From: Paraburkholderia sp. PREW-6R
Lineage (GTDB): Bacteria > Pseudomonadota > Gammaproteobacteria > Burkholderiales > Burkholderiaceae
Assembly (NCBI RefSeq): GCF_039621805.1
Contig: NZ_CP155074.1
Span: 1,612,001 to 1,676,000, forward strand
Direction of reading: 5' to 3'
DNA: 64,000 bases
Both the position numbers and the translations under genes were made by a program. Under the pieces are notes generated by a model. It saw only the letters and a program-made list of their open reading frames with translations, was not told where the DNA came from and ran no database searches. Shown one piece after another: positions 16,282 to 27,131 of this stretch (position 1 is its first letter; the number at the start of each line of letters is the position of its first letter).

Positions 16282-17502
16282 TCAGCGCTCGCCCACCTGC
16301 AAGCACACCGGAAACGTAATTTCAAAAATCGTCCCCTCGCCTTCCTGCGAGTCGAAACGAATGTCCCCGTCCAGGACGCGGCACAGTTCCTTGACGATCG
16401 CCAGACCCAGGCCCGCGCCGGGGATGTCGTCATCGGCGGCGCGCTCGAATTCCTTGAACACGCGCTCACGGTCGGATGCGCCGATACCCACGCCGGTGTC
16501 GGACACGCGCAGGCGCCAGTGGCTGCTGTCCGCAGCCGCCATCGTCAGGACGATCTCGCCGGCGCGCGTGTATTTCGACGCGTTGGTCAGCAGATTCAGC
16601 GCAACCTGCTTGAGCTTGAGCCGACTGGAAATGATCGAATCGAGCGCGTCGTCAAAGGACGCTTCGAGACGCAACCCTTTTGCCTCGATCACCGGTTGGC
16701 ACGAAATGACCAGTTCGTCGAAAAGTTCGCGCAGCGAGAAGCGCTCCAGCGTCAGCGGACTGGTGTCGCCGAGCACGATCGAGTACTCGACCAGTTCGTC
16801 CACCAGTGTCTTCATGTCGCTCGCCTGACGGTTCGCCAGCGCGAGCGCGGTGTCGATCTTCTCGGGTGCGCGGCTCATCAGCTGAAGCGCCATCGAAAAA
16901 ACATTGAGGAAGTTGCGCAGATCGTGTACCACGCGTCGCGTGATCCGCATGCGCGATTCGTAGAGCTCGCTGACAAGTTGTTGATTGTGTGTAAGTTCCT
17001 TATTCACGCTTTCGAGCCGCGCGGTGGAATCCTCGATCGTGCGATCCCTTTCGCTGACGACTTCGCGAATCGAGGTCAACGTGACAAAACTCACACATTC
17101 GTCGATGAAGTGGCGCGCCCGCTCCTCGTGGCGCCGAGTAAACGATGGCTTCATTTCGCTGAATTCGACGATCGCGCCGGTCAGCATCTGGCGAAACAGG
17201 TCGAGTTCACGAACCAGTTCGTCGATCCGGTAGCCCTGCTGCCAGCGCAGCTTGCCGTGCTGACGCGCATCGCGCTCGATGGCGGTTTCGCACTGGTCGA
17301 GATCCTGCTGCTCCAGCACGATACAGATCTCTTCGAGAATATTGGGAATGTGGTCGGCCAGTTGCTCGTAGGTCAGGCGGTCGGCCTCGCTCAGTTCGGT
17401 GTCGTGAAACACCGCCTTCATCCAGCGCTCCGTCAGATCGACCCGGTGCAGCCGCAAATGCGCAGCAAAAGTGGACAACGGGAGTGCGGGCGAGTCTGTC
17501 AT
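16282..17502 (-). CDS. Soluble sensor histidine kinase with RsbRD-like N-terminal domain
   Basis: A 406-residue protein without membrane segments. Residues about 12-150 resemble the N-terminal helical domain of RsbRD/RsbR-type proteins (LTERWMKAVF near the start), then a coiled linker (150-185). The kinase core follows: H-box VVHDLRNFL with His193, N-box LLTNASKY (Asn307), G1 DTGVGI (335-340) and G2 GAGLGLAIV (362-370). There is no receiver domain. The start at 17502 is chosen because the frame upstream codes for a low-complexity Arg-rich stretch. No response regulator is adjacent. The stressosome-type module lies about 3 kb away on the same strand, which makes crosstalk plausible but unproven. 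Confidence 0.85.
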   Translation of the reverse strand: MTDSPALPLSTFAAHLRLHRVDLTERWMKAVFHDTELSEADRLTYEQLADHIPNILEEICIVLEQQDLDQCETAIERDARQHGKLRWQQGYRIDELVRELDLFRQMLTGAIVEFSEMKPSFTRRHEERARHFIDECVSFVTLTSIREVVSERDRTIEDSTARLESVNKELTHNQQLVSELYESRMRITRRVVHDLRNFLNVFSMALQLMSRAPEKIDTALALANRQASDMKTLVDELVEYSIVLGDTSPLTLERFSLRELFDELVISCQPVIEAKGLRLEASFDDALDSIISSRLKLKQVALNLLTNASKYTRAGEIVLTMAAADSSHWRLRVSDTGVGIGASDRERVFKEFERAADDDIPGAGLGLAIVKELCRVLDGDIRFDSQEGEGTIFEITFPVCLQVGER

Positions 17503-17768
17503 GTAGGGTGGCCTGTCGCCGCCTGATGGCAGCAGTGGGTGATCGCGGGCACCCCGCGCGTCCTGGCGCGAGGGTTCCGTGACTCTTCCACGCCATGCTC
17601 GACACGTCCGCGCGGACCGCCGACCGCGACCAGCAGGCAGGGCGAGCGCGTCACGCAGCGCTACGCGCCTCCAGTATGCGCGAATTACAAGACAAAAATT
17701 AACCAGGGTAACGACGTGTATGCACCCGGTGCACGCCCGGCGCCCCGCGCCGCCCTGGCGTACACCGC

Positions 17769-18687: not shown

Positions 18688-19449
18688 TTAGCTCTTGAGC
18701 CGGTATCCTGTCTTGAAGATCCACGCGACGATCAGCAGAAACACGGCGAGAAACAGCGCAGTCATGCCGAGACTGACCTTGACGTCCACGTCGGCGAGAC
18801 CATAGAAGCTCCAGCGAAACCCGCTGACCAGATAGACGATCGGATTGAACAGCGTAATGACCTTCCAGAATGGCGGCAGCATATTCACTGCATAGAAGCT
18901 GCCGCCGAGAAAGGTCAACGGCGTAATGATCAGGAGCGGCACCAGTTGCAGCTTCTCAAAGCTGTCCGCCCAGATGCCGATGATGAACCCGAGCAGGCTG
19001 AACGTGACCGCCGTCAGAACAAGGAACAGGATCATCCAGAACGGGTGCTGGATTTGCAACGGCACGAACAGACCGGCCGTCGCGAGAATGATCAGCCCGA
19101 GAAGAATGGACTTGGTGGCGGCCGCGCCCACATAGCTCACCACGATCTCCAGATACGACACCGGCGCGGACAGCAACTCGTAGATCGTGCCCGTAAAGCG
19201 CGGAAAATAAATGCCGAACGACGCATTCGAGATGCTTTGCGAGAGCAGCGACAGCATGATCAGGCCCGGCACGATGAACGCACCGTAACTGATGCCGTCC
19301 ACTTCCTTGATACGCGAGCCAATTGCCGCGCCGAACACGACGAAGTAAAGCGAAGTGGAAATGACCGGCGCAATGATGCTTTGCATCAGCGTGCGCCATG
19401 TACGTGCCATTTCGAACTTGTAGATCGCACGAATTGCATAAATATTCAT
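18688..19449 (-). CDS. ABC-2 type transporter permease (YadH-like)
   Basis: A 253-residue membrane protein with six hydrophobic segments and the ABC2_membrane layout, close in length to E. coli YadH and NodJ. Family landmarks include [16 protein letters not shown] in the first helices, [14 protein letters not shown] in the coupling-helix region and [10 protein letters not shown] in the fifth segment. GAGGTG lies 4 nt before the ATG, which overlaps the stop of the ATPase gene (ATGA), so the two are translationally coupled. Together they form an exporter of unknown substrate. Confidence 0.9.
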
Positions 19450-20372
19450 TGGTCACCTCGGAGCAGGCTGACGAAAATATCCTCGAGCGAGCTTTGCGTT
19501 GTATGCAGGTCCTTGAAACGGATGCCGGCGTCGTCGAGCGCCTTGAGCAGCGCGATAATGTCGGTGCGGCCGCCTTCGCCCTCGTAGGTATAGGTCAGTT
19601 CGTTGCCGCCTTTGGCGACGGCCAGCCCGTAGCCCGCGAGCGACTCCGGAAGCGCGGCAAGCGGGCTTTCCAGTTGCAGCGTTAACTGCTTTTTACCGAG
19701 CTTGCGCATCAATTCCGTTTTCTCTTCGACGAGCATGATCTCGCCCGCGTTGATCACGCCGATGCGGTCCGCCATTTGTTCGGCCTCGTCGATGTAATGC
19801 GTGGTGAGAATGATCGTCACGCCGTCCGCCGCCAGCGAGCGCACCAGCCTCCACATATCGCGGCGCAACTCCACGTCCACGCCGGCAGTGGGTTCGTCGA
19901 GAAACAGCACGCGCGGCTCATGCGAAAGCGCCTTCGCGATCAGCACCCGCCGCTTCATGCCGCCCGACAGCGTGATGATCTTGCTATTGCGTTTTTCCCA
20001 TAGCGACAGGTCACGCAATATCTTCTCGATGTACGCCGGGTCTTTCGGCTTGCCGAACAGTCCTCGACTGAACGACACGGTCGCCCAAACGGTTTCGAAT
20101 GAGTCGGTGGTGAGTTCCTGCGGCACGAGACCGATCAGCGAGCGCGCACCGCGATAGTCGGCGGCGATGTCGCGGCCGTCCACCATGACGCTGCCTTCGC
20201 TCGCATTGACAATGCCGCAGATGATGCTGATGAGCGTGGTCTTGCCCGCGCCGTTCGGCCCGAGCAACGCAAAAATCTCCCCGCGGTCGATCGCCAGATT
20301 GATGTTCTTGAGTGCATGAAAACCCGTGGCATAAGTTTTCGACAGGTTCGTGACCGAGACGATTGGCGGCAT
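19446..20372 (-). CDS. ABC transporter ATP-binding protein (YadG-like)
   Basis: A 308-residue ATPase, the same length as E. coli YadG and similar along most of its sequence. It has Walker [10 protein letters not shown], a Q-loop in GLVPQE, the signature LSGGMKRR, Walker [13 protein letters not shown] and the H-loop TTHYIDEAE. The C-terminal extension (from about 215) is the regulatory region typical of this subfamily. The start at 20372 excludes an upstream in-frame Arg-rich stretch reaching 20441. Its partner permease overlaps by 4 bp. Export of a lipid, drug or polysaccharide is possible; the sequence does not tell which. Confidence 0.92.
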
Positions 20373-20700: not shown

Positions 20701-22620
20701 TTAACGCTGAAAAGCCGGGAACCGCGCCGCGATCACCTGTTGTATTTCTTCGGAGGCCACCGGCTTCACGAGGTGATGATCGAAGCCCGCTTCGCGTGAG
20801 CGCTCGCGGTCGCTTGCCTGGCCATAACCTGTCACCGCGATCAGCAAAGCGCCAGCCGTGGACTCCCGCTTGCGCATTTCGCGGGCTAGCTCGAAGCCGT
20901 CCATGCCGGGCAGCCCGAGATCGAGCAGAACGATTTCGGGCTCGAACTGCGCGGCAAGCTCGAGAGCGCTCGTCGCTTCATGCGCCACGCGCACGTCGTA
21001 GCCGTCGGCCTCAAGTACGAGCGACATGGCCATCGCGGCGTCCGTGCTGTCGTCCACGAGCAGCAGGCGCAGCGCGGAAACCGCGTTGTGCCCGGCCGTC
21101 ACTGGCGCGCTCGCCACTGGCTCGCCCGGATGCGCGAGCCGTGTGAGCGGCAGACGCACGACGAATTCACTGCCCTGCGCCGGACCCGCGGAATAGGCTT
21201 CAATCTCGCCACCGTGCAACCGCACCAGCGTGCGAGCGAGCGGCAGCCCGATGCCGAGGCCGCCGTCGGAACGTTCGAGCGAACTCTCCGACTGCACGAA
21301 CAGATCGAAGATATGCGGGATGCTCTCGGCGGCAATGCCGACGCCGTTATCGCGCACACTGATCTGCACATCGTCCTGCTGCTGCCCGACCCGAATCACG
21401 ATCTCGCCGCCTTGCGGCGTGTACTTCGCGGCATTCGACAAAACGTTGCCCAACACCTGCGCGATCCGCACGCCGTCGCCGACGACGTACAGCGGTTCTT
21501 CCGGTAACTCGGTCTTCAGCGTATGGCCCTTCTTGCTGAGCGTGGGCTGCGCGGTCTCGATGGCCGCCTCGACCGCCGCAGCGAGTTCGACGATTTCCTG
21601 GCGCAACGTGATCTTGCCCTGCGTGATACGCGCGACGTCCAGCAGATCGTCGACGAGCCGGCTAAGATGCTTGACCTGACGTCCGATAACTGCACGCATC
21701 GCTTCAAAGCTATCCTGTGAAGGCGAACGGCTCGGGTCGAGCAGTTCGACCGCGTTGCGAATCGGCGCGAGCGGATTGCGCAACTCATGCGCGAGCATCG
21801 CGAGAAACTCGTCCTTGCGCCGGTCCGCGTCGCGCAGCACCATCTCCGTCGCCTTGCGCTCGGAGATGTCATTGACGATGCCGGCCAGCCGATAGATCTG
21901 CCCACGCGCGTCGCGTACCGGAAATGCGCGCTCCACGGCCCAGCGTGTTTCTCCGTTCGGCCGCACGATCCGATATTCGATCTCGTACGGTACGCCCTCG
22001 GCAAGCGCGCGGTACGCGTCGGCCGCCACGGCTTCGTACTGCGCATCGATATGCCCGCACCAGTGCCGCGGCCCCGGAACCGGCGCCTCGGCTTCATCGC
22101 CCCACAGCCGGCTGTATGCCGGGCTCACGTACAACAGTTGCGATGTGGCGGGATCGAGCATCCAGAACACGTCGTCGATGTTCTCGGCCATCTGGCGAAA
22201 GCGCTCTTCGCTTTCGCGCAATGCGCCTTCTGCGCGGCGCACGCGCAGCAGCGCGCGCACCTGTGCAATCAATTCGGCCGGCTCGATCGGCTCGGTGAGG
22301 TAACTGTCCGCGCCACCGTCGAGACCGCGGACGCGATCCGTGCTGTCCACCGCTCGCGCGGAGGTGTGCAACACCAGCGCGCCGGAAGTTTCAGGGGCGG
22401 CCTTGATGCGGCGGCAAACTTCGAAACCGTCGAGATCGGGAAGGTTGACGTCGAGCAGAACCAGGTCGGGCTGCGAGATGCGTGCGCACTCGATCGCGTC
22501 GGTGCCGTTGCCGGCTTCAATCACCACAAAGCCCGCACGCGACAGAATGCGCGTCTTTGCATAACGCGCGCCTTCGTTGTCGTCGACGTTCAGAATGAGA
22601 TTTGCAGTCGCGTCGCTCAT
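20701..22620 (-). CDS. Hybrid two-component protein REC-PAS-HisKA-HATPase-REC
   Basis: A 639-residue soluble protein. A receiver domain (about 8-125) has phospho-acceptor Asp57, but its usual Lys is Glu110 in LTEPIEP. A PAS/PAC domain spans about 135-258. The kinase has His278 in LAHELRNPLAPIRN, N-box Asn395, G1 DNGVGIA (424-430) and G2 GGLGIGLPLA. A second receiver (about 517-635) has Asp567 and Lys619 in VKP. It is the last gene of the stressosome-type module, 127 bp after the neighbouring kinase. It lacks a DNA-binding or GGDEF output, so it probably relays phosphate to another protein. Confidence 0.9.
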   Translation of the reverse strand: MSDATANLILNVDDNEGARYAKTRILSRAGFVVIEAGNGTDAIECARISQPDLVLLDVNLPDLDGFEVCRRIKAAPETSGALVLHTSARAVDSTDRVRGLDGGADSYLTEPIEPAELIAQVRALLRVRRAEGALRESEERFRQMAENIDDVFWMLDPATSQLLYVSPAYSRLWGDEAEAPVPGPRHWCGHIDAQYEAVAADAYRALAEGVPYEIEYRIVRPNGETRWAVERAFPVRDARGQIYRLAGIVNDISERKATEMVLRDADRRKDEFLAMLAHELRNPLAPIRNAVELLDPSRSPSQDSFEAMRAVIGRQVKHLSRLVDDLLDVARITQGKITLRQEIVELAAAVEAAIETAQPTLSKKGHTLKTELPEEPLYVVGDGVRIAQVLGNVLSNAAKYTPQGGEIVIRVGQQQDDVQISVRDNGVGIAAESIPHIFDLFVQSESSLERSDGGLGIGLPLARTLVRLHGGEIEAYSAGPAQGSEFVVRLPLTRLAHPGEPVASAPVTAGHNAVSALRLLLVDDSTDAAMAMSLVLEADGYDVRVAHEATSALELAAQFEPEIVLLDLGLPGMDGFELAREMRKRESTAGALLIAVTGYGQASDRERSREAGFDHHLVKPVASEEIQQVIAARFPAFQR

Positions 22621-22747
22621 GAAAAATCGTGTCCGTGTGTACTTCAGTAAATGCCATGCACCGCTTTCAGCAACGAAAGCAGTTGAGTGCCCAAAACGGG
22701 CTCAATCGAATCCGAGGAACAGGCGCCTGTGTGCGCGGCGATCGCTG

Positions 22748-24241
22748 TCATACGTTGCCCGTGTTGCTGGCACCGGTTGCGGACTCGCCCTCCGTGCCGG
22801 CGAGATTGCGCGCGTTGCCCGACGTGCCGGCCATATCGCGAGCCGGTGCGCCCGCAATGCGCTCGACGTCGGGCACGTGCGGCAGATAGGCGGGAATGGT
22901 CGCCGTGAACGTGGAACCCTTGCCGAGTTCGCTTTCGAGTCCGAGCGTGCCGCCCAGCAGCTTGCACAACTGGCTACACAACGGCAATCCGAGTCCAGTG
23001 CCTTTTACCTGGGTCTGCAGACGATTGGCCACCTGCTCGAACTCCTCGAACACGATCTGCTGATGTTCAGGCGCAATACCGATGCCGGTGTCGATCACGG
23101 CAAAGGTCAGGCGCTTTTCGGCAGGCTCATAGCGCGCGCGCACGCGCACCTCGCCCTGCTCAGTGAACTTGAGTGCATTGGATATGAAATTGCGCAGGAT
23201 CTGCGAGACTTTGCCTTCGTCGGTATAGACCGGCGGAATGTCGTCGCACGCTTCGAACACGAGGTCGACGCCGCTTGCGGGCAGGAGCGGACGCAGCATG
23301 CCGCGCAACGCCGAAAAGAGATTCGCGACCTCGAATTCCGCGGGCCGCAAATCAACCTTGCCGGCCTCGATCTTCGCGATGTCGAGCAGATCGTCGACCG
23401 TCTCGGAAAGCTCCTCTGCGGCCTTGCGGATAAAGCGCACCTGCTTTGCCTGCTCGTCGGTCAGATCGCCGTCCACGCGGTCGATCAGCAGCTTAGAGAG
23501 CGCACGGATCGAATACAGCGGCGAACGGAATTCGTGCGACATGTTCGACAGAAACCGCGACTTTGCCTCATCCGCTCGACGCAGATGCACGGCCCGTTCG
23601 TCGAGTTCGGCATAGAGCGCGACCACGCCGCGATTCGTGTCCTCGAGCTCGCGCGTGAGCCGCATCAACTCTTCCTGACGCTCCTGCAGATGCGCGAGCG
23701 CCATCACCAGTTCGCGGTTCTGCCGCTGCAATTCCTCGAAGGGCGTCTGCGCGTTGACGGCTACCGCTTTCGGCCGCACCGCCGCGACCACACCCGAAGC
23801 CGCAACGCGCGGCGCCTTTTCGGGCAGACGTTTGGTCAACGTGAGCACGGCGCCGCCGGGCGCATCTTCGAACGAGCACGCGTCCATCAGGCGCTGCGCC
23901 GCGAGAATGCCCATTGGACCCGGCGCGCCGGGCACGTCTGCCGCGCTGTTTGCGCGCTCGGCATGGGCGGCCGCACCGGTGATCTTCTCGAGGCCCGTGG
24001 AAGGCGAGACAAAACGGATCATCAGGCTCTGCGGGCGGCCGGTCTCGTCGAGCAGGAACTCGGCGCGGCCCACACGCGTGGCGCTGAGCATCATGCGCGC
24101 GACTTCGAGCGCCGAAGTCGCGATGCGCGTCTGGTCCTGCGCGGCAAAACCGATCGCTTCGCTGACCTCGCGCGCGCGCCGCCGTGTGGCGACCACCGCG
24201 AGTTCGCTGTCGATCTGAAGAACGTGAAGAATTTCGGCCAT
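22748..24241 (-). CDS. Histidine kinase with degenerate RsbT/RsbW-like N-terminus and coiled coil
   Basis: A 497-residue soluble kinase. The first 140 or so residues resemble an anti-sigma-type ATPase fold (TSALEVARMML in place of an N-box) but lack clear ATP-binding Gly loops. A coiled coil runs from about 165 to 230. The kinase core then has His236 in MSHEFRSPL, N-box Asn355, G1 DTGIGIA (384-390) and G2 GTGLGLPLC (414-422). The tail after 455 is Ala/Gly-rich and low in complexity. Its ATG overlaps the stop of the phosphatase gene by one base (TGATG), showing tight coupling. In the module it is the likely receiver of the RsbT signal, turning stressosome release into a phosphorelay; that role is inferred. 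Confidence 0.87.
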   Translation of the reverse strand: MAEILHVLQIDSELAVVATRRRAREVSEAIGFAAQDQTRIATSALEVARMMLSATRVGRAEFLLDETGRPQSLMIRFVSPSTGLEKITGAAAHAERANSAADVPGAPGPMGILAAQRLMDACSFEDAPGGAVLTLTKRLPEKAPRVAASGVVAAVRPKAVAVNAQTPFEELQRQNRELVMALAHLQERQEELMRLTRELEDTNRGVVALYAELDERAVHLRRADEAKSRFLSNMSHEFRSPLYSIRALSKLLIDRVDGDLTDEQAKQVRFIRKAAEELSETVDDLLDIAKIEAGKVDLRPAEFEVANLFSALRGMLRPLLPASGVDLVFEACDDIPPVYTDEGKVSQILRNFISNALKFTEQGEVRVRARYEPAEKRLTFAVIDTGIGIAPEHQQIVFEEFEQVANRLQTQVKGTGLGLPLCSQLCKLLGGTLGLESELGKGSTFTATIPAYLPHVPDVERIAGAPARDMAGTSGNARNLAGTEGESATGASNTGNV

Positions 24242-25353
24242 CAGCGCCGCTCCGCGTCGCGAGCACGCGCAACGAACACGGTGATGTCATCGCGCCCGCG
24301 CGCGAAGTCTCGATACAGCGTGGCAGCGATTAATGACGGGTGGCGCAGCGCAAGTCCAGGGTAACGGCTCAAGTCCCAGCGCGTGGCGAGCCCGTCCGAA
24401 TGCAGAATCAGCAAAGCGTCGGCGGGCCATTCGACCTCAAATGCCTGCGCCTTGTGCATCTGATGACCGACGATCCCCGCATGCGAGACCAGATGTTTAT
24501 GCGACACCGGACTCCATACGCTCGCGGCAATGTTGCCGATGCCGCAGAAACGCGCGACTGCGCGCGCAGCGTGTTCCGTGGCGAGCGGAATGCGCGCGAC
24601 GCCGACTGCGGCGCCGCGCGTGCCGCGCAGTGCGTCGTGCGAAGCGGTGACAATCTGTTCGACCGTGGACGGCCCGAGCCGGCCAAACGCGTCGGTTGCG
24701 GCGACCGCCGCCGTGTTTGCCAGCGGGCCATGGCCGAGGCCGTCGGCAACCATCACCAGGAAGCCGTCGTCTTCATAGCAGCACGACCACGCGTCGCCGC
24801 ACACGAACTCGCCTTGCAGCGGCAGATTGATCGCGCCGAATTCGATTGTCCCGCTCGCGCGGGCAGTCGAGCCGGCGTCGCCAGTCGTCGAAAATGGCGC
24901 CGCGCCATGACCCCACACCACCGCGCGCAACGCGGTGCCAAGGCCCGGCGCACTCCAGACGTCGAGTTCGTCGGCGAGCCGCTGGATCGCGCCGAGGCCA
25001 TTGCCCGAACTGCCGGCCGTCGTATAGCCGTCGACAAATGATGCATGCAGATCGGCAATGCCCGGACCGCTGTCGATCGCGAGTAATTCGATCCCTTCCC
25101 GTGCAACTCTTTCCACGCCGGGCGGCACGACCTCGCGCAACGAACGTACGAGCAGTTCGCCGCGCTGTGCGTATTTGAGCTGATTAGTCGCGCACTCGGT
25201 GACGATGATGGCGAGCCGCCCGCTCACGGTCTCGTCGAAACCCAGGCTGACTGACAGATCGCCGATGCCGCGTCGCGCGAACGACACCTGGCTTGGATCG
25301 CCGATTTCAAAACGTTGCTGGGTCGAAGTTGACCCTTTCAGAACGGCTTCCAT
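24241..25353 (-). CDS. Fusion of RsbT-like ATPase domain and SpoIIE/RsbX-type PP2C phosphatase
   Basis: A 370-residue two-domain protein. Residues about 12-148 form a GHKL ATPase with ECATNQ (53-58), DSGPGIAD (94-101) and a GNGLGAIQRL loop. Residues about 168-365 form a SpoIIE-type PP2C phosphatase with candidate metal ligands Asp187 (CGDAW), Asp204 (ADGLGHG), Asp320 (HSDGLA) and Asp356 (RDDITVF). In Bacillus the separate RsbX phosphatase resets phosphorylated RsbR and RsbS; here that activity is fused to a kinase-like fold. It starts 16 bp inside rsbT, so the two are coupled. Confidence 0.9.
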   Translation of the reverse strand: MEAVLKGSTSTQQRFEIGDPSQVSFARRGIGDLSVSLGFDETVSGRLAIIVTECATNQLKYAQRGELLVRSLREVVPPGVERVAREGIELLAIDSGPGIADLHASFVDGYTTAGSSGNGLGAIQRLADELDVWSAPGLGTALRAVVWGHGAAPFSTTGDAGSTARASGTIEFGAINLPLQGEFVCGDAWSCCYEDDGFLVMVADGLGHGPLANTAAVAATDAFGRLGPSTVEQIVTASHDALRGTRGAAVGVARIPLATEHAARAVARFCGIGNIAASVWSPVSHKHLVSHAGIVGHQMHKAQAFEVEWPADALLILHSDGLATRWDLSRYPGLALRHPSLIAATLYRDFARGRDDITVFVARARDAERR

Positions 25354-25778
25354 TTGGTGATTGATATATGTGTGCCCTCACCTGGCGCCGAGCGGATCTC
25401 GAACTCGTCGCACAGCCGTTTTGCGCCGCCCAAACCGAGGCCGAGACCGTTGCCGCTGGTGTAACCGTCGGTGAGCGCTTTGTTGATGTCAGCAATTCCC
25501 GGGCCGTTGTCGATGAATTCGAGCCGCAGACCGGTGCGCCCGTTGCGACGCAAGGTGAAGCAGTGGGCGTCGCCGCCCCCACCGTATATCAATGTATTGC
25601 GGGCCAGTTCGCTCGCCGCAGTGACGAACTTGGTCTGGTCGATCAGTGACAGGCCGAGCGCGACCGCCTTTTCGCGGACCCAACGGCGTAATCGCACGAT
25701 CTGCTCATCCGAGCGGATCGGCAACACTTCATCCGATGTATGGTCTTCGGCGCCAGCCTGGGAATAATGACTCGTCAT
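25338..25778 (-). CDS. rsbT: RsbT-type switch serine/threonine kinase
   Basis: A 146-residue GHKL kinase matching RsbT. The N-box is ASELARNT (55-62), the ATP-lid Asp motif is DNGPGIAD (90-97), and GNGLGLGLGG (109-118) forms the Gly loop. In stressosomes RsbT phosphorylates RsbS and RsbR, then leaves to activate its next partner. The ATG at 25778 gives the usual family length. A TTG at 25826 that overlaps the rsbS stop is an alternative start that would fit translational coupling. No RsbU is adjacent, so the downstream phosphatase fusion or kinase is the likely partner. Confidence 0.92.
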   Translation of the reverse strand: MTSHYSQAGAEDHTSDEVLPIRSDEQIVRLRRWVREKAVALGLSLIDQTKFVTAASELARNTLIYGGGGDAHCFTLRRNGRTGLRLEFIDNGPGIADINKALTDGYTSGNGLGLGLGGAKRLCDEFEIRSAPGEGTHISITKWKPF

Positions 25779-25822
25779 GGAAGATTGAGGCGCGCTGTTG
25801 GATGACTGGCCGGCAAGCGGGC

Positions 25823-26182
25823 TCAAAATTCGGCCGAGCCAGTCAGCAACGCCATGCCCTTCTCGACGTTGAGCGCAGTGCGCACGCCGGGCAATGCGAG
25901 TCCGAGTTCGACTAGCGTGATCGCCACGGACGGCTGCATGCCGACTACGACCGTTTCCGCGTCGAGCACGCGAGCCATGGCGGCCGTGTCGCCGATCATC
26001 CGGCCGATAAAAGAGTCCACCACGTCGAGTGAAGAAATATCGATCAGCACGCCTTTGGCGCGGTCTTTGACGATGCGGCTCGTCAGATCGTCCTGCAGGG
26101 TCATGGCCAGACGGTCATGCATGTCGACCTGAATGGTCACGAGCAGAAACCTGCCCATCCGCAGAATTGGAATGCGTTCCAT
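25823..26182 (-). CDS. rsbS: RsbS-type STAS-domain antagonist, stressosome core
   Basis: A 119-residue single STAS domain, the standard length for RsbS. It opens with PILRMGRFLLVTIQ and has the phosphorylation loop SLDVVDSFIG, where Ser57 corresponds to the Ser phosphorylated by RsbT in Bacillus. RsbS forms the core of the stressosome with RsbR and holds RsbT inactive. It lies 31 bp after the rsbR stop. The conserved Ser and neighbouring residues are intact, so a working phospho-switch is expected. Confidence 0.93.
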   Translation of the reverse strand: MERIPILRMGRFLLVTIQVDMHDRLAMTLQDDLTSRIVKDRAKGVLIDISSLDVVDSFIGRMIGDTAAMARVLDAETVVVGMQPSVAITLVELGLALPGVRTALNVEKGMALLTGSAEF

Positions 26183-26213
26183 TGCCGGGTCCAGTCAGTG
26201 TGGGCGGACCGGC

Positions 26214-27131
26214 TCAATTGCCGGCGAGCGAATTGGCCTGCGATGCGCCACCTGCGCCTTGCGCGTCGCCGCGCAGCGCGCCGCCGAGCACGGGCTTGCC
26301 GGTGCGCTGCAGCGCAATGACGAACGCGTCTGCGAGGGTCGCCTTGGTAATGACGTTCGACAGATTGACGCCGAGGTGGACGATGGTCTGCGCGATCTGC
26401 GGACGGATGCCGCTGATGATGCAGTCCGCGCCCATCAGCCGCGCCGCTGCGACGGTTTTAAGCAAATGCTGGGCGACGAGCGTGTCGACCGTCGGCACAC
26501 CGGTAATGTCGATAATCGCAATCGCCGCGCCCGTTTCTACAATTTTCTGCAGAAGACTTTCCATCACGACCTGCGTGCGCGCCGAATCAAGCGTGCCGAT
26601 CAACGGCAGTGCAAGAATGCCCTCCCACAACTGGACGACCGGCGTGGACAATTCGAGCAATTCCTGCTGCTGGCGCACGATGACCTGTTCGCGGCTCGTC
26701 TGGTAAACCTCGGTGGTGTACAGACCCATCGCGTCGAACAACGTGCTGACGGTCCATGTCAGTTCGGCGAGGCGCGCGGAATCGTCTTCCAGCTCGGCGC
26801 GCAAACGGGTGAACAGCGGCCCTTTGAACGAGAACACGAACGTCGCCGTTTCAACCGGAGAGAAGCCCTGGCGCGCCCGCTGCGTGGTGACTTCCGCGAG
26901 AAAGCCGCGCACTTCGTCCCACGTCGACGTTTGAAAATCCACACGGTCCGACGCATTGAGCGCCGCGCAGGAAAGCGACACGAACTGCACGAACTGGTTG
27001 CGCAATTGCGCCTCGGTAACGCCGCCGCGACGGGACGCAATGGCATATTGCTGGGCGACCCAATCGCCGAGCAATTCGCTTTGCCGTTCGTTGAAGAGTT
27101 GGGCGAGACGCGTTCCGCCGAGCGTTTCCAT
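26214..27131 (-). CDS. rsbR: RsbR-type STAS co-antagonist, stressosome sensor subunit
   Basis: A 305-residue protein. An all-helical N-terminal sensor region (about 1-150) of the RsbR type joins, through a linker helix, a STAS domain at about 163-280. The loop ITGVPTVDTLVAQH holds the conserved Thr217, and Thr180 in LIGTLDSAR matches the second RsbT target site of Bacillus RsbR. A low-complexity Gly/Ala tail follows. AGGAAAA lies just before the ATG at 27131, supporting this start over an in-frame one at 27179. It is the first gene of the six-gene module. Only one RsbR paralogue is present in this window. Confidence 0.9.
   Translation of the reverse strand: METLGGTRLAQLFNERQSELLGDWVAQQYAIASRRGGVTEAQLRNQFVQFVSLSCAALNASDRVDFQTSTWDEVRGFLAEVTTQRARQGFSPVETATFVFSFKGPLFTRLRAELEDDSARLAELTWTVSTLFDAMGLYTTEVYQTSREQVIVRQQQELLELSTPVVQLWEGILALPLIGTLDSARTQVVMESLLQKIVETGAAIAIIDITGVPTVDTLVAQHLLKTVAAARLMGADCIISGIRPQIAQTIVHLGVNLSNVITKATLADAFVIALQRTGKPVLGGALRGDAQGAGGASQANSLAGN

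Follow-up and report, generated by a model that had tools for sequence, protein, structure and literature searches.

A putative stressosome phosphorelay operon in Paraburkholderia sp. PREW-6R whose phosphatase and first histidine kinase carry RsbT-like domains

Organization of the operon

We analyzed a 64,000-nucleotide stretch of DNA from Paraburkholderia sp. PREW-6R (contig NZ_CP155074.1, positions 1,612,001 to 1,676,000; referred to below as the window), which contains a six-gene operon of the stressosome type. The host genome is 7.0 Mb in size and comprises four contigs. The open reading frames (ORFs) of the operon all lie on the minus strand in the order rsbR, rsbS, rsbT, phosphatase gene (X), histidine kinase gene, and hybrid kinase gene. 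Pfam assigned to them, in the same order, RsbRD_N and STAS; STAS; HATPase_c; HATPase_c_2 and SpoIIE; HisKA and HATPase_c; and REC-PAS-HisKA-HATPase-REC. Spacers of 31 bp, 44 bp, and 127 bp separate rsbR from rsbS, rsbS from rsbT, and the first kinase gene from the hybrid kinase gene, respectively, whereas rsbT and X overlap by 16 bp and X and the first kinase gene by 1 bp. The features of the operon are as follows (amino acid positions are given as aa).

26214..27131, minus strand: rsbR; RsbRD_N sensor domain (aa 9-111) and STAS domain (aa 167-269), with predicted phosphosites Ser183 and Thr217
25823..26182, minus strand: rsbS; one STAS domain, with predicted phosphosite Ser57
25338..25778, minus strand: rsbT; switch kinase with an intact ATP site
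24241..25353, minus strand: X, whole phosphatase gene; HATPase_c_2 and SpoIIE
24904..25353, minus strand: N-terminal RsbT-like ATPase domain of X (aa 1-150); intact ATP site, one clade in the tree
24241..24903, minus strand: linker and SpoIIE-type PP2C phosphatase domain of X; conserved Asp residues present
22748..24241, minus strand: histidine kinase, whole gene; HisKA and HATPase_c by Pfam
23807..24241, minus strand: N-terminal RsbT-like domain of the kinase (aa 1-145); lacks the N-box Asn and the G1 Asp
23540..23749, minus strand: conserved, probably helical linker of the kinase ("ELEDTNRGVVALYAELDERA..."); fixed length to the H-box
22748..23539, minus strand: HisKA (SHEFRSPL) and HATPase_c of the kinase; no C-terminal receiver was detected in the host genome's copy
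20701..22620, minus strand: hybrid kinase, REC1-PAS-HisKA-HATPase-REC2; Glu replaces the conserved Lys in REC1, REC2 is canonical

An earlier sequence-only reading had described six same-strand genes in this order with the 16-bp and 1-bp overlaps, and the ORF positions and Pfam assignments agreed with it. The RsbT-like start of the first kinase and the loss of the Lys from REC1 had been overlooked. We regard this anatomy of the operon as near certain. Scans for promoters, terminators, and Rfam families gave nothing useful.

RsbT-like domains of the histidine kinase and the phosphatase

The first kinase opens with a domain homologous to RsbT (aa 1-145, hereafter the kinase head), an assignment supported by BLAST against the RsbT of the window, by comparison of profiles, by a tree, and by an AlphaFold model. 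In the model the head was predicted to fold well, and its best fold matches were RsbW and SpoIIAB. Both sequence and fold placed it in the RsbT/RsbW/SpoIIAB subgroup rather than among the catalytic domains of histidine kinases. An NCBIfam comparison supported the switch-kinase subgroup for the kinase heads of four relatives; the head of the window itself fell into no NCBIfam family and gave only a sub-threshold partial match in Pfam. Together, these results make a strong case that the kinase head is homologous to RsbT-type switch kinases. Since X also carries an RsbT-like head and RsbT is encoded as a free protein, the operon encodes three RsbT-type domains. The anti-sigma kinases SpoIIAB and RsbW have the same fold as the kinase head; unlike them, the head forms part of a histidine kinase and, in the host genome, lacks the N-box Asn and the G1 Asp.

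The conservation of these residues was scored in the window, 24 neighborhoods from the same family, and 80 named loci; several named loci come from the same genomes as family loci, so that some counts include genomes twice. Among 98 kinase heads, the N-box Asn was present in 69 and the G1 Asp in 64, with both kept in 64 heads, one in five, and neither in 29. Both were thus lost in the window and in 28 of the 97 other loci with a head. These decayed heads came from Paraburkholderia/Caballeronia, Massilia-like, a few Gemmatimonadota, and other loci. After identical sequences were merged, 27 distinct decayed heads remained, all of which retained R20 and R24, while R39, E46, and R49 were each kept in 26. 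Mean column conservation in this set was 0.52 and mean pairwise identity 0.43, and R20 and R24 were two of four invariant columns. R20 of the kinase head aligns with Arg31 of the window's RsbT, and this RsbT column aligns with R20 of SpoIIAB, a residue that contacts the partners of SpoIIAB. The loss of the ATP-site residues together with the retention of the arginines fits a docking role of the kinase head. A study of RsbT implicates its residues R19, R23, and N24 in RsbU binding (PMC12143880). Judging from their i, i+4 spacing, R19 and R23 are probably the same helix-1 arginines as R20 and R24 of the kinase head.

Between an ETNRG-type motif in the linker and the H-box, 35 residues were counted in 75 of the 76 loci with both motifs and 34 in the other; under this strict pattern, 27/103 loci lacked one or both motifs. 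The linker motif was also retained in five kinases of the family and named sets that have no head (L040, L043, L044, L046, and L125). Pfam detected no RsbU_N domain in X or either kinase, and the same library detected RsbU_N in locus L152.

The head of X kept the N-box Asn in 104/105 loci and the G1 Asp in 105/105, and the conserved Asp residues of its phosphatase domain were present in 105/105. X was the only SpoIIE-type match in the host genome, which makes a reset role likelier than an output role; X is most likely a reset (RsbX-like) phosphatase.

In a midpoint-rooted tree of 135 domains, built from few columns and with no outgroup, the X heads formed one group (100/99) and the kinase heads another (99/96). 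RsbT required two changes on this tree, and three RsbT proteins (L147, L148, and L152) fell with the X-head side. In L148 (3012-4419) and L152 (2966-4401), a free-standing second RsbT-like gene precedes a bare PP2C gene in place of the fused X head. The second RsbT-like domains of these two loci branched next to the X-head group (96/91 and 99/89), suggesting that the X head probably arose from a free second RsbT and that their arrangement is likely the pre-fusion state. Two single ORFs that join X and an RsbT-type head (P0155 and P0222, the latter also including the kinase) were not counted as evidence of natural fusion; their phosphatase part is truncated, and they may therefore be frameshifts.

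Distribution of the operon

X was found in 27 of the 120 sampled genomes of the family, the window's own included (E <= 1e-20). Neighborhoods were examined for 24 of the 26 other genomes; G069 and G088, which had fragmentary matches, were not among them. All 24 contained rsbR, rsbS, rsbT, a PP2C phosphatase with its head, and the kinase, and in 20 the kinase carried a head. The named loci were the best 80 of 460 fetched with a phosphatase profile, and since they were picked by similarity to X they favor the same layout. RsbR, RsbS, RsbT, X head, kinase head, and kinase were all present in 74 of these 80 loci, from at least six phyla; among them were Massilia, Janthinobacterium, Bradyrhizobium, Nostoc, Calothrix, Aquisphaera, Nitrospira, Acidobacteria, Gemmatimonadota, and a Rokubacterium. 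As for the six exceptions, L094, L101, and L116 were cut by contig ends, L081 had rsbRST on the other strand, L064 had no rsbRST within reach, and L125 had a headless kinase.

Within the genus, RsbS was present in 46 of 97 genomes, indicating that the module is patchy. A fairer count was obtained from loci selected by RsbS. This protein was detected in 22 of 398 Pseudomonadota genomes, and 20 fetched loci were combined with the window and L043. RsbR-RsbS-RsbT occurred in this order in 22/22 loci and a phosphatase with a fused head in 19/22. A kinase with a head came next in 10/22 loci and a kinase without one in 8/22.

Stressosome core and the sigma-B pathway

RsbS of the window matched a solved RsbS at 4.9e-30, and RsbR matched a solved stressosome RsbR-type chain at 4.9e-35. 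Thr217 of RsbR aligned with Thr209 of the solved chain 9o3o. Ser183 and Thr217 were each conserved in 103/103 aligned loci; Ser57 of RsbS was Ser in 103 of 104, the remaining locus having a gap. From residue numbering, Ser183 is probably the counterpart of the second known phosphosite (Thr175 in Listeria). The N-box Asn and the G1 Asp of RsbT were each present in 103/103 loci. A profile search with RsbT found SpoIIAB, and as a single sequence RsbT gave no match in PDB. The locus thus encodes an RsbR with sensor domain, STAS domain, and phosphosites, a single-STAS RsbS with its Ser, and an intact RsbT beside rsbRS. Its stressosome likeness is read from these genes; the pseudo-icosahedral complex is a feature of known stressosomes.

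Another histidine kinase gene of the window (16282-17658, minus strand) encodes an RsbRD_N sensor domain at its N terminus; apart from the operon's RsbR, the genome gave no further RsbRD_N match. It was rejected as a part of the module: no clear copy was found beside the operon in 16 loci of the genus, two of which gave matches of 23-24%.

In Bacillus, the stressosome releases RsbT to RsbU, which leads to sigma-B. SigBFG gave eight matches in the host genome, none of them above the cut-off (best 130.6 vs 234.35 bits). Of the five STAS matches in the genome, two were RsbR and RsbS and two were sulfate permeases; the fifth was a 97-aa STAS_2 protein whose gene adjoins MlaC and ABC-transporter genes. 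No RsbV was found in the genome, and a search with the STAS_2 family added no further protein. Among 27 HATPase_c_2 matches in the genome there was no RsbW-sized frame. Besides RsbT and X, all lay in frames of at least 337 aa; the 337-aa frame was a 314-aa HisKA_3 sensor kinase, and the longer ones were not opened individually, so that an RsbW is unlikely rather than excluded. On these genome searches, an exit from the stressosome of the operon to sigma-B appears unlikely.

Several statements of the sequence-only reading can be assessed here. RsbS Ser57 and RsbR Thr217 were located by the alignments where it had placed them, and sigma-B and RsbV, which it noted as absent, were not found in searches of the whole genome either. 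It had also noted no RsbW; none of the HATPase_c_2 matches of the genome was RsbW-sized, and the longer HATPase_c_2 frames limit this statement to unlikely. Its proposal of a phosphorelay output gains from the failure to find a sigma-B route and from the synteny of the kinases with rsbRST across phyla. The phosphatase is likelier a reset enzyme, and the coupling of stressosomes to phosphorelays as such has already been published in two studies (PMC9237108, PMC10014275), which also describe stressosome genes adjacent to modules for two-component signaling, cyclic-di-GMP, and phosphatases.

Hybrid kinase and downstream genes

In REC1 of the hybrid kinase, the acidic pair and the phospho-Asp were present in 95/95 sequences; the conserved Lys was found in 1/95, with mostly Glu instead. 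The Lys of REC2 was conserved in 80/81. From these patterns, REC2 is probably the working receiver and REC1 a modified one. The genome encodes one short Hpt protein (142 aa), and its gene overlaps that of a LuxR-type response regulator; it is therefore only a weak candidate partner.

An ABC-2 transporter pair (18688-20372, minus strand) lies directly after the operon. It occupied the same place in three of seven close loci of the genus (L155-L161).

Discussion

The operon resembles the Vibrio vulnificus RSTX and VvD1-VvD2 genes, where rsbR-rsbS-rsbT-phosphatase is followed by two-component genes and there is no sigma-B (PMC10014275, PMC9237108). Unlike that system, which has a globin-sensor RsbR and a single-domain PP2C phosphatase of the RsbX type, the operon encodes an RsbR with RsbRD_N and both phosphatase and kinase carry RsbT-like heads, the extra N-terminal ATPase domain setting X apart from RsbX of the Vibrio-type module. 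It shares RsbR, RsbS, RsbT, their phosphosites, and a phosphatase gene near rsbRST with the RsbRST-RsbU-RsbVW-sigmaB system of Bacillus subtilis. In contrast to B. subtilis, we found neither RsbU_N nor RsbV, sigma-B, or an RsbW-sized gene, and the output enzymes bear the RsbT-type domain rather than its receptor. Moorella MtG and some proteobacterial kinases, which are stressosome kinases and cyclases bearing RsbU_N, likewise combine the enzyme with a linker and, at the N terminus, a module linked to the stressosome (PMC12143880); this module is RsbU_N there, whereas in the operon it is an RsbT homologue. L152 combines RsbU_N outputs with an unfused second RsbT. In searches of an open literature library, RsbT-type heads on a stressosome phosphatase or kinase were not seen to be described, and the passages found on RsbT-like domains or homologues dealt with other proteins; the search did not take in the 2005 founding review (10.1159/000088837), which may mention such fusions, or a 2017 review.

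We consider the chances about even that the six genes form a stressosome phosphorelay operon and that the RsbT relatives fused to its two output enzymes dock or switch X, for reset, and the kinase, for output, at the stressosome, the partners being inferred. Docking and switching of this kind is a plausible mechanism. In unstressed cells, RsbS and RsbR would hold RsbT as well as the RsbT-like heads of X and the kinase. Under stress, RsbT would phosphorylate RsbS and RsbR, and the heads would be released or rearranged. The change in the kinase head may travel through the fixed-length linker and switch histidine autophosphorylation, with the phosphate passing to REC2 of the hybrid kinase or to an HPt protein and a regulator encoded elsewhere. 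X, recruited to the core by its head, would remove the phosphate from RsbS and RsbR and so reset the system. A more specific form of this proposal, which we put forward tentatively and with some doubt, is that the kinase and X are stressosome subunits whose heads sit in RsbT sites on RsbS/RsbR, the shell gating the kinase directly. In Paraburkholderia, Caballeronia, and Massilia lineages the kinase head would then have become a pseudo-ATPase, a non-catalytic plug that senses whether the shell is occupied or phosphorylated but adds no phosphate itself.

Free RsbT released by stress might instead activate the kinase in trans through the linker, as with the RsbU linker, the head being a mere dimerization or inhibitory cap. 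The linker has a constant length and is still present in the five headless kinases inspected for their upstream sequence, and PMC12143880 shows that RsbT orders the linker of RsbU, with a like effect predicted for a histidine kinase that bears RsbU_N. However, Pfam found no RsbU_N on the kinase of the window, and the RsbT-type arginines of the decayed head would be left unexplained. A Vibrio study of a globin-type RsbR obtained no positive interaction between RsbT and the kinase VvD1, found RsbU_N in only some downstream proteins (it was absent from most), and suggested that RsbT perhaps phosphorylates the sensor kinase (PMC9237108). Activation in trans therefore seems unlikely to us. The same helix-1 arginines bear on the idea that the kinase head has become a functionless vestige and that the operon is coupled only through co-expression. 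The loss of both ATP-site residues in the window and in 28/97 other heads would suit such decay, as would the several headless kinases, but the decayed head of the window is predicted to fold well and the near-complete retention of R20, R24, R39, E46, and R49 among decayed heads makes a vestige very improbable.

X lies directly after rsbT, in the place of rsbU in Bacillus, and bears a regulatory head, as might be expected of an RsbU-like output phosphatase for another phosphoprotein, with the kinase pair as a parallel branch. Nonetheless, the searches of the genome yielded no RsbV-like STAS target, and the phosphatase that occupies this position in the published globin-type modules of Gram-negative bacteria is related to RsbX (PMC9237108). 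Moreover, two sampled genomes have an unfused RsbT-like gene and a PP2C gene in the place of X, followed in one of them by RsbU_N output proteins. We thus consider an output role of X quite unlikely.

Docking of both enzymes through their RsbT-like heads has observations of its own to contend with. The kinase head was missing from 8 of the 18 RsbS-selected loci with such a kinase after X, and headless kinases also occurred in 5/104 family and named loci (L043 belongs to both sets), so that a head is not needed for the association of the kinase with stressosome genes. The remaining 4/22 RsbS-selected loci differed in what followed the phosphatase: L147 has a second SpoIIE protein there, L148 another HisKA kinase, L149 a PAS-GGDEF-EAL protein, and L152 RsbU_N-GGDEF and RsbU_N-PAS-kinase-REC proteins. 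The decayed heads belong to a small number of related lineages and so do not represent 27 independent events. The link to the hybrid kinase is affected by the 127-bp gap before its gene and by genome G560 (L161 and L176), in which the operon has no kinase; at a distance of 134 kb, the contig carries a kinase (64% identical) paired with its own hybrid. Finally, no gene recurred after the kinases by position and size when ORFs were listed and compared by eye, without clustering or annotation. These points weigh against our proposal.

The operon bears on how stressosomes without sigma-B signal to two-component kinases. An operon found across phyla with RsbT homologues on both phosphatase and kinase offers a concrete, directly testable route from the stressosome into two-component signaling. 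In some lineages the kinase head has a decayed ATP site, which uncouples docking from catalysis, so that the two roles of an RsbT domain may be tested apart.

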